DNA of 44,578 nucleotides from a virus. Position numbers and translations under genes: made by a program. The notes beneath the pieces are model-generated. The model saw only the letters and a list, made by a program, of their open reading frames with translations, had not been told where the DNA came from and did no database searches. Location: positions 1-44,578 of the IMG/VR virus record IMGVR_UViG_3300033142_000724. One strand, 5' to 3'. Shown piece after piece: positions 6,565 through 11,561 of the stretch (within the stretch, counting starts at the first letter, position 1; each line of letters begins with the position of its first letter).

Positions 6565-6635
6565 TCATTGAACAAAAAAGTTTCTTGTGCAAGGTACTTG
6601 ACAGGATGAATTTCTTTCATATAGGATGCTTGATT

Positions 6636-6752
6636 GTGAAGGCTGGACTATCAGAGACACTGAGCACAACACCAGCCCGCGTGGCATCCTTTCCAGCCTT
6701 CACAGTTTGGGGTGATGTCAACCCTGGTGTTGTGCTTCGTGTTTCTGATAGT
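6636..6752 (+). ncRNA. Interleaved inverted repeats (pseudoknot- or switch-like) before the primase-helicase
   Basis: Arm A, GTGAAGGCTGG (6636-6646), is the exact reverse complement of A' (6693-6703). Arm B (6647-6675) is the reverse complement of B' (6724-6752) at 26 of 29 positions. The order A-B-A'-B' means the two stems interleave. They could form a pseudoknot together or be exclusive alternatives. B' ends five bases before the preferred start codon of the primase-helicase, so the structure could control its translation or be an RNase or terminator element. Confidence 0.6.
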
Positions 6753-6756
6753 ACCA

Positions 6757-9321
6757 ATGCGGACACAGAAAAGAATTGATGTGGTGTTGAAAGAAACAAT
6801 AGCTTTGTTTATCAATGCGGATCGGAAATTGATCCCTTTGAAACAAATTAGGCTAGACCTACCAACAGATAACCCATGGAACAAAAGACCACTATACAAC
6901 AACTGGACCACCAGACAGCACACCAAGAAACAAATTGAACATTTTGCAAAAAGGAAACACAACATTGGATGGTGTCTAGGTCCAAAGGATTTAATAATAG
7001 ATGTTGATGCTCGCAACAATGGCATTGAAGGATTTAAATTACTCCAAGCAGATTACCCACAAATTAATTTCAGCTTCTTTCCATCAGTTTCAACTGGTGG
7101 AGGGGGTTATCATATCTATGCAACCATACCATCAGAAATCGACGGTGCTAGAATTAGAAAAGGATTGCCGAAATACCCTGGCATTGACTTTCTTTCAAAT
7201 AACAGACAGATATTAATACCGGGCTGCATTCATCCAACTGGTAAATCTTATGAATGGATTGCTGATAGTCCATTCAATGATCAACCCCCTGAAATCCCCC
7301 TTAAGCTGTCTAGGCAGCTGGTATATAAAAATCCCTCCCAAACCAGCCAGCAGTCTAGGCAGCACCCTTCCACCTTACATACCCTTTCAGAGTTAGCAGA
7401 ACTGCTGTCAAAGCTTCCCGTTGAAGAGTACGATGATAATGATTCATGGTTCTCTTTAATGGCTTCAGCCCACCACTGCACAGCTGGTGAAGGCATTGAA
7501 GAATTTTTAGAGTGGTCACTAGATGATCCAGAGTACCAGGATGATGAACAAGTAATCAGATCTCGATGGGAATCGCTGGGAAGAAATGAAATAGATCCTA
7601 GAACAGTTAGAACAATCTACCGTGAAGTACAGAAGCATAATGGTGAGCTTCCAAACTTCACCACTGCATTACAGGATTTTGAAGATGATTTTGATAATGG
7701 AAATAATGCAAACTGCTTTGATGATCTGTTTGGTTTTGATGATGCTGCTGATACTACCAGCAATCTACCAGACACAAAGGGATCTAATAAAGCTGATGAA
7801 AGCAACAAGATCAGCCTTGATAGATACATTGGAAAGCTTACCAAAGAAACACCAATTGAACGAATCAATAAAGCTATTGCACAAGTTGGTAAACTATCTG
7901 CTGGAAATCAAGACAGATACATCAAAAAGATTGCTAGACGATCTGGTATCCGTTCAGAAACAATTAGAAGACAGATCAGATCAGAGCAAGAAAAAGCACA
8001 ATCGGATATAGAACAACGTATTGCAGATCGATTGCTGAAAGAAAAGTATTCAGATGGTGAGCATCTGATCTATACAATCAACCAAAGGTTTAGAGTGTTC
8101 AATGGTACTCACTGGTCTATCAAGCCAAAGCATCTATTAGAAAAGCACATTGAAAATATTGCTGAAGAAGTAAGAGATAAGGATAAAGATCTAGAGTTTA
8201 ACATAGCTCGTATCTTTGCAGGGGTTGATCGTATTGCGCGTGGTAGGGTGATGGTGGAAGAAGATTTATTTTCAATGAAGGATGGACCACCACCAATATT
8301 GAATCTAGCCAATGGTGAATTACACTTTGATGCACATGGTAATTCAAAGCTGAAGAGACATAATTACAAATCCTATTTACCCTGGTGTCTAGACCATATC
8401 AAACACAACTCTAAAGCCAAGTGCACTCTATATGATAACACCTTACTTGAAATATTCTCCAAGGCTGATGAACCAAAAGAAATAATTAGGCATATGTGGG
8501 AAATGCTGGGCTATGCAATTCAATCTGAAAAGAACCTTCCTATCTGGTGTATGTTCTATGGTCATGGCGCCGATGGTAAAAGCACCATCATTAGAATATG
8601 GGCTGCAATGCTAGGACCAGCAGCCATTTCACAAAGCCTATCTAGCCTAGATATTAGAAAGAATAAACACGCCTATTCAGAGTTACCAGGAAAGCTATTA
8701 CAGTATGATGCTGATCTAGCTGATGGTGTGTACCTGCCTGAAGCTTATCTAAAGAATGTTTCTGAAAATGGCTGGTTGCTTGCAGATCCAAAAGGAATGA
8801 CACCATATAACTTTAGAGCTTGCATTACATCCATTGCAGCAACCAACTATTTACCACCAATCAGAAATCTATCTAAGGGTGTTGCAAGGCGGGCAATGCT
8901 CATACCATTTAACCGAAGCTTTAAACAGGAAGAACAAGATATAAACAGGGCTGATAGAATAATTCAATCTGAATTGTCTGGTGTGTTGAACAAAGCATTG
9001 CAAGGGCTGAAGCGACTTAGAAAACGTGGTTACTTTTCTGAACCATCTGAATGCAAGCAATTAAAAAATACATGGATGGAACATAGTTCAAACATCTTAG
9101 CATTCTTGAATGAAGTGCAGCCAATCAGAAAGGATAGTTGGAGAAAGAGAAAGATGAATGCTAAGAAGCTCTATGAACAATTAAATGATTGGTACAATGA
9201 AGAAGAGATTGAAGGCAGAAACCGTGTCAGTTATCGCGGTATGGTAAAGAAATTGCGTGATATGGGTTTCATTATCAAACGTGGTAGCAGTGGCCTAACC
9301 TCAGTGGAAGTTAGAAGGTGA
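6757..9321 (+). CDS. Bifunctional primase-polymerase / SF3-type helicase
   Basis: About 854 residues. The N-terminal domain is an archaeo-eukaryotic Prim-Pol type primase: K-x-P-x-x-x-W entry motif, then IIDVDARNNG with Asp82 and Asp84 as metal ligands, and GGGGYHIY. An acidic linker (about 295-340) contains FEDDFDN and CFDDLFGFDD. The C-terminal part is a D5/SF3-like helicase with Walker A GHGADGKST (602-610) and an Asp-rich Walker B-like segment (LLQYDADLADG). It would prime and unwind at the phage origin. The start is uncertain: ATG 6757 lacks a good ribosome site, GTG 6781 follows AGAAAAG, and GTG 6712/ATG 6715 would include the upstream repeat arm. Confidence 0.9.
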   Translation: MRTQKRIDVVLKETIALFINADRKLIPLKQIRLDLPTDNPWNKRPLYNNWTTRQHTKKQIEHFAKRKHNIGWCLGPKDLIIDVDARNNGIEGFKLLQADYPQINFSFFPSVSTGGGGYHIYATIPSEIDGARIRKGLPKYPGIDFLSNNRQILIPGCIHPTGKSYEWIADSPFNDQPPEIPLKLSRQLVYKNPSQTSQQSRQHPSTLHTLSELAELLSKLPVEEYDDNDSWFSLMASAHHCTAGEGIEEFLEWSLDDPEYQDDEQVIRSRWESLGRNEIDPRTVRTIYREVQKHNGELPNFTTALQDFEDDFDNGNNANCFDDLFGFDDAADTTSNLPDTKGSNKADESNKISLDRYIGKLTKETPIERINKAIAQVGKLSAGNQDRYIKKIARRSGIRSETIRRQIRSEQEKAQSDIEQRIADRLLKEKYSDGEHLIYTINQRFRVFNGTHWSIKPKHLLEKHIENIAEEVRDKDKDLEFNIARIFAGVDRIARGRVMVEEDLFSMKDGPPPILNLANGELHFDAHGNSKLKRHNYKSYLPWCLDHIKHNSKAKCTLYDNTLLEIFSKADEPKEIIRHMWEMLGYAIQSEKNLPIWCMFYGHGADGKSTIIRIWAAMLGPAAISQSLSSLDIRKNKHAYSELPGKLLQYDADLADGVYLPEAYLKNVSENGWLLADPKGMTPYNFRACITSIAATNYLPPIRNLSKGVARRAMLIPFNRSFKQEEQDINRADRIIQSELSGVLNKALQGLKRLRKRGYFSEPSECKQLKNTWMEHSSNILAFLNEVQPIRKDSWRKRKMNAKKLYEQLNDWYNEEEIEGRNRVSYRGMVKKLRDMGFIIKRGSSGLTSVEVRR

Positions 9322-11097: not shown

Positions 11098-11107
11098 AGT
11101 GGATCAA

Positions 11108-11240
11108 TTCGATCCCTGTAATGGTGTGCTGATGGTAGCAATAAAAACAACTAACGAAAGGGCAACGGCTACACCACAAAATATGTTCAGTGTTGAAGGA
11201 AGAAGCTCACGACTATCAGCACACCATTACAGGGATCGAA
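11108..11240 (+). ncRNA. Large perfect stem-loop between two early genes
   Basis: The 26 bases at 11108-11133 are the exact reverse complement of 11215-11240, around an 81-base loop. No reading frame of note runs through it. The 3' arm is followed by AAAAAGAAAGG and the next start codon (11259), so the helix stops just short of the next ribosome site. It could be a processed RNA, an RNase III site, a translation switch, or a structured small RNA. A T-run is missing, so it is not a standard terminator. Confidence 0.65.
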
Positions 11241-11258
11241 AAAGAAAGGAAATGAACA

Positions 11259-11561
11259 ATGCCAGCTAAACCAACTAGGCCAACTAGATCAGTTGCCATG
11301 GCGGCGAAGTGTCATAACTGCACTGGTGGTTATCTAGATGGAAAAAAGGATTGTGAAAATACTCAATGTGAATTGTACCCATGGATGCCATACAAGAAAA
11401 TGAAACCCGATCTTGAATGGCTCAAATACAATCCAAAGCAAAAGGGGTTGGTAACATGGGAAGATTCACAAAGGGATCTAACAGACGAACAAAGGCAAGC
11501 AATTGCTGATCGGTTGTCCAAGTCTAGAAAATTGGAAGCTGATTGTGAAGATCTATTCTAG
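11259..11561 (+). CDS. Hypothetical Cys-cluster protein with acidic EDLF end
   Basis: 100 residues. A Cys cluster in the N-terminal half (KCHNCTGGYLDGKKDC..CELYPWMPYKK) looks like a zinc site and belongs to a pattern common in phage early proteins. The middle has Trp and Lys, then a helix (TDEQRQAIADRLSKSRKL). The C-terminus is EADCEDLF, an acidic Leu-Phe end shared with several replication proteins of this genome. AGAAAGG lies before the ATG. Confidence 0.72.
   Translation: MPAKPTRPTRSVAMAAKCHNCTGGYLDGKKDCENTQCELYPWMPYKKMKPDLEWLKYNPKQKGLVTWEDSQRDLTDEQRQAIADRLSKSRKLEADCEDLF

Follow-up and report, generated by a model that had tools for sequence, protein, structure and literature searches.

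What do interleaved inverted repeats contribute directly in front of a phage primase-helicase gene: do they act in the messenger RNA, in the DNA or as coding sequence, or are they a relic? The window examined for this question is the entire IMG/VR virus record IMGVR_UViG_3300033142_000724 (44,578 bases), which belongs to a tailed phage that encodes tail sheath and baseplate proteins. Its early gene block, on the + strand at ~2.2–21.8 kb, is almost gapless, and the repeat element sits in one of the few gaps of this block longer than 100 nt (6565–6756, 192 nt). The features on which the argument turns are as follows.

6598–6627, + strand: promoter-like site, with TTGACA at 6598–6603 and a predicted RNA start at ~6632–6634
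6606–6779, + strand: possible but unproven 57-aa ORF that crosses the repeats and overlaps the primase start
6635–6647, + strand: arm A, pairing with A' and extending to 6632 in RNA with G·U pairs
6647–6675, + strand: arm B, from the inverted-repeat search
6692–6704, + strand: arm A', from the inverted-repeat search
6724–6752, + strand: arm B', ending 4 nt before the primase ATG 6757
6757–9321, + strand: primase-helicase (Prim-Pol, PriCT_2 and DUF5906/D5-type), with an ATG start lacking a Shine-Dalgarno sequence

Overlapping hairpins before the primase gene

The pair of overlapping hairpins before the primase is genuine and highly non-random. Arms A and A' are perfectly complementary, as the original prediction had it, over 13 nt rather than 11, and as RNA the A:A' helix grows to 16 pairs (6632–6647 with 6692–6707). 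The 29-nt arms B and B', with the three mismatches previously described, were recovered at 6647–6675 and 6724–6752 around a 48-nt loop; on the + strand two of the mismatches are G·U and the third is U·C, giving 28 pairs that include two G·U, and one mismatch. The arm coordinates bear out the order A-B-A'-B', and base 6647 is common to arms A and B.

In a genome-wide search (match +1, mismatch −3, span up to 130 nt), the top-scoring short-range inverted repeats were, in this order, a hairpin at 11108–11240 (score 25), B (17) and A (13), and all three fall in gaps of the otherwise nearly gapless operon. Across 100 simulated order-2 Markov genomes of 44.6 kb the scores peaked at 14, below the 17 of B, and when the gap was shuffled 2000 times by dinucleotides, not one shuffle attained 13, the score of the A arm. 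Neither the search of IMG/VR for the exact arms nor the Rfam search with the element returned a match. Also considered and rejected was a tandem repeat of coding sequence in which one unit is inverted (centres offset by 60 nt), as no more copies occur within the window.

RNA folding and access to the primase start

The + strand RNA of the element folds at −74.6 kcal/mol (z = −7.1), better than the − strand (z = −4.2), which argues for a function in RNA; the spacer folded alone is no better than chance. Two structures had been envisaged for this arm order, an H-type pseudoknot and a pair of alternative folds, and our analysis favours the second. The order is indeed that of an H-type pseudoknot, but the full A:A' and B:B' helices cannot form simultaneously, because they share base 6647. 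With A running straight into B, the 28-pair helix B would have to be bridged by a loop of zero nucleotides, and on this geometric argument, made without a 3D model, the H-type pseudoknot with both full helices is rejected; only a partial one could form in passing. The HDV-like topology that the same arm order brings to mind was likewise set aside, given a helix A of 13–16 pairs, the missing loop between A and B and the silence of Rfam.

The folding of growing transcripts from 6632 also yields mutually exclusive structures, with A:A' present from ~6700 and B:B' taking over from ~6735. In the full transcript, positions 6740–6756 are ~93% paired according to the folding calculation, and forcing A:A' costs 21.5 kcal/mol. 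In the calculated A:A' fold the start region lies in weaker hairpins, and its exposure is thus a matter of degree.

ATG 6757, the start codon preferred in the original prediction, is likely to be the primase start, given that alignments with homologues begin at Met1 or residue 3: the primases of contigs L011 and L012 align from their first residues and that of PaMx74 from residue 3. This ATG has no Shine-Dalgarno sequence, the duplex being calculated at +0.6 kcal/mol versus −3 to −11 kcal/mol for most genes of this phage. The 3' arm had been placed five bases before the start codon and over the expected ribosome site; B' does adjoin the primase start and lies directly on the start region, but at a distance of four bases, and the region it covers holds no Shine-Dalgarno sequence.

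The promoter-like site upstream is the strongest in the vicinity; it was noticed after the fact and is defined by its consensus match alone (10 of 12 positions). Its TTGACA can be combined with TATAGG (6620–6625, spacing 16) or TAGGAT (6622–6627, spacing 18) as the −10-like hexamer, and the RNA start predicted at ~6632 coincides with the 5' end of the extended helix A. Among the eight such high-scoring + strand sites of the genome it is the only one with a perfect TTGACA; promoter-like sites as a class are no more frequent than in shuffles across the 1–12.5 kb scanned (21 found, 31.8 expected).

The reading that we prefer, with a probability of roughly 45%, is that the element constitutes an RNA-level gate on the primase start site, which RNase III or ribosomes arriving from upstream would open. 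The element probably acts in the mRNA, where it may hold the start site shut, as a structured stretch that either leads the primase transcript or lies between two of its cistrons. On RNA from the promoter-like site, whose use we infer, A:A' (up to 16 pairs, from the predicted first base) would form first in the cell; after the emergence of B', the 28-pair B:B' would displace it and bury the stretch before the primase ATG, with ATG 6757 itself predicted to lie within an extended, partly paired stem. As a consequence of this burial, translation of the primase would be low by default, and its output would be confined to a brief interval or depend on an opening event. Long near-perfect stems, such as one of 28 pairs, fall within the general substrate range of RNase III, and B:B' exceeds the near-perfect mRNA stem of at least ~20 pairs that characterizes its sites; we infer that RNase III would be the likely opener, a ribosome crossing the overlapping ORF on read-through mRNA being the alternative.

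An RNA-level role fits best with a set of indirect observations, namely the G·U mismatches on the mRNA strand, the GC-richness of the element, the position of the promoter-like site and the lack of a Shine-Dalgarno sequence at a start region that lies inside the stem. Regarding the mismatches, all three transition-type ones across the element and the hairpin at 11108–11240 are G·U on the mRNA strand and none is A·C, for which chance alone would give 1 in 8. In turn, the 51% GC of the element region, compared with 39% for the genome, is consistent with structured RNA, which tends to be GC-rich.

Such a mechanism would have familiar counterparts. Early mRNAs of phages carry hairpin leaders and RNase III processing sites, as exemplified by the lambda N leader and T7 early mRNA, and the element is similar to these in that a long stem separates genes on a polycistronic early mRNA, near a start codon. 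It differs from them in its two interleaved and exclusive pairs, its 48-nt loop and its start without Shine-Dalgarno sequence, and in being known from sequence alone. In phage T4, the start codons of e and soc are masked by mRNA hairpins, and RNA phages show coupled translation; a paired start region in need of opening would be common to these systems and the element. Unlike in these systems, the promoter-like site here lies upstream of the whole hairpin, and both arms would be present on each transcript made from it. If real, the gate would represent a compact case in which a phage restrains its replication initiator by the order of RNA folding.

The comparison with relatives weighs against an RNA gate. 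Close relatives sought by primase, polymerase and topoisomerase were not found in the collections searched; alignment-guided searches gave 49 primase loci and eight near-full-length relatives at 27–32% identity, and six contigs near in primase have no match to the polymerase of the window. At the ~45 primase loci examined, no comparable repeat precedes the gene, and the conserved structure, covariation or known family expected of an attenuator- or riboswitch-type leader is not apparent, with neither an Rfam match nor, in relatives, a homologous element from which covariation could be read. Homologues that keep the primase and lose the pairing were named in the original prediction as evidence against it, and the relatives are of exactly this kind. 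Given that they are just ~22–35% identical, however, this absence indicates that the element is not an ancestral part of the gene, and not that it is functionless here. Also against the gate, the strongest repeats of several relatives adjoin the primase yet resemble DNA origins.

In six relatives (L140–L145), a Cro-like gene of 77–88 aa ending in ...LRPDL/M is conserved directly before the primase; it is absent in the window. The element was rejected as a remnant of this gene, whose profile finds nothing in it.

A possible role in DNA and the likely replication origin

A DNA-level role is the main rival, and a serious one, because the repeats of relatives resemble the stem-loops of pRN1 and BIP-1, even though we regard it as unlikely for the element itself. 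According to this explanation, the element would be a replication stem-loop at which the primase-helicase assembles next to its gene and opens the DNA, a mode of action that has been proposed for pRN1 and BIP-1. A stem-loop is required for the replication of plasmid pRN1, and another has been reported behind the replication gene of Bordetella phage BIP-1, whose protein contains Prim-Pol, PriCT_2 and SF3 helicase domains (PMC4234260). The element likewise adjoins a replication gene with the BIP-1 domain order (Prim-Pol, PriCT_2, SF3-type helicase), and its 29-nt stem and 48-nt loop are similar in size to those of pRN1 (21 and 58). Thus, a large stem-loop beside a Prim-Pol/SF3 gene is present, whereas the 3' position and the AT-rich spacer are not: the element lies before its gene, and its spacer has 58% GC in a genome of 39% GC, unlike the spacers of relatives, which are 7–23 points more AT-rich than their loci. 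The AT-rich spacer is our own observation in relatives and stands outside the published pRN1/BIP-1 definition.

Strong repeats are located directly 3' of the primase in five of nine full-length relatives, with spacers whose AT content exceeds that of the remaining locus; in three of these five contigs, scanned nearly whole, that repeat is the strongest wide-spacer repeat. The corresponding AT-rich gaps behind the primase are:

L141, 4078–4373
L142, 4117–4386
L012, 5563–5874
L145, 3564–3791
L005 (phage AchV4), 5590–5836

These gaps with their strong inverted repeats, partly made up of AGGGTTA-type repeats, are probable origins of Prim-Pol/SF3 phages. Our scan of BIP-1 itself detected no strong repeat behind the primase (score 9, not above chance), and since the published example was missed, the repeats surveyed may belong to a slightly different class. 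The occurrence of such repeats in several distant phage contigs nevertheless bears on the published but little tested idea that Prim-Pol/SF3 proteins act at stem-loop DNA elements.

A further point against the element as an origin is that a separate region, 1028–1511, is likely the replication origin and a better candidate for it. Iterons of the type AGTGATCTAAATT occur there at 1028, 1048 and 1060 (+ strand), with a weaker one at 1180, and in inverted orientation at 1425 and 1499; the three left and two inverted right copies are within one mismatch, and weaker copies are present in addition. They point at an AT-rich core (~1195–1295, 25% GC) in a divergent intergenic region, a layout that is the same in relatives. 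The iteron motif is absent from the element, which was accordingly rejected as an iteron origin. A 12-mer, GTATAAGAAAAA, that the window (at 1208) shares with the gaps 3' of the L011 and L012 primases was discarded as evidence, being too AT-rich on a rough estimate.

Coding and relic explanations, and the second hairpin

About as doubtful as the DNA-level role is the explanation that the repeats are coding, with a 57-aa protein made from 6606–6779 and its translation coupled to that of the primase, the hairpin being incidental or serving the coupling. This ORF is open across the whole gap, is preceded by AAGG 11 nt before its ATG and has the best codon score of the six frames, although 21–30% of open wrong frames reach higher codon scores and the measure is not decisive. 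The other hairpin gap likewise holds a spanning ORF with a good Shine-Dalgarno sequence (11099–11270), but spanning ORFs arise in 15–17% of shuffles (17% for 6606–6779). Moreover, no homologue of the 57-aa product was found in searches, and RNA from the promoter-like site would begin downstream of its ATG. The peptides read through the repeats on both strands are alike by symmetry, as had been anticipated.

Less probable again is a neutral relic, that is, functionless inverted copies generated by template switching during replication. The absence of the element from all relatives examined and a composition unlike that of the genome are in line with this notion. However, two separate interleaved pairs share one gap, both at a gene start, their mismatches preserve RNA pairing, and a second long hairpin occupies the sole other comparable gap in that part of the operon. 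Far less credible than any of these is a dual-purpose element, in which the mRNA fold would ration the primase and the DNA stem-loop would be recognised by the primase-helicase, the protein controlling both its own synthesis and its loading site.

The second hairpin, at 11108–11240, is the strongest short-range hairpin of the genome, with 29-nt arms (one G·U) and a 75-nt spacer, and lies in the gap before ATG 11259, where the 56-aa ORF 11099–11270 crosses it. It leaves the Shine-Dalgarno sequence of its gene uncovered and is therefore not a second example of a gate. Homology between both hairpins was rejected: they have GACTATCAG in common, but ~2% of shuffles match at best (63 of 3000; four comparisons).

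Long-stem repeats with arms of 17–33 nt and spacers of 43–74 nt were also observed in other phage contigs, mostly in or beside ORF gaps, and 1.3 Mb of phage contigs contain 12 repeats that score at least 17. Examples are:

L139, 7722–7861
L068, 3468–3546 and 9623–9701
L107, 1592–1683

Finally, a start-site cassette that includes a Shine-Dalgarno sequence, AAAGGAGCAAGGCTG-ATG, occurs within three mismatches at eight places on the + strand:

2610, 4127, 4347, 4604, 4858, 5854, 10087 and 12463, + strand: AAAGGAGCAAGGCTG-ATG cassette

This cassette resembles the start-associated sequences known from some mycobacteriophages.
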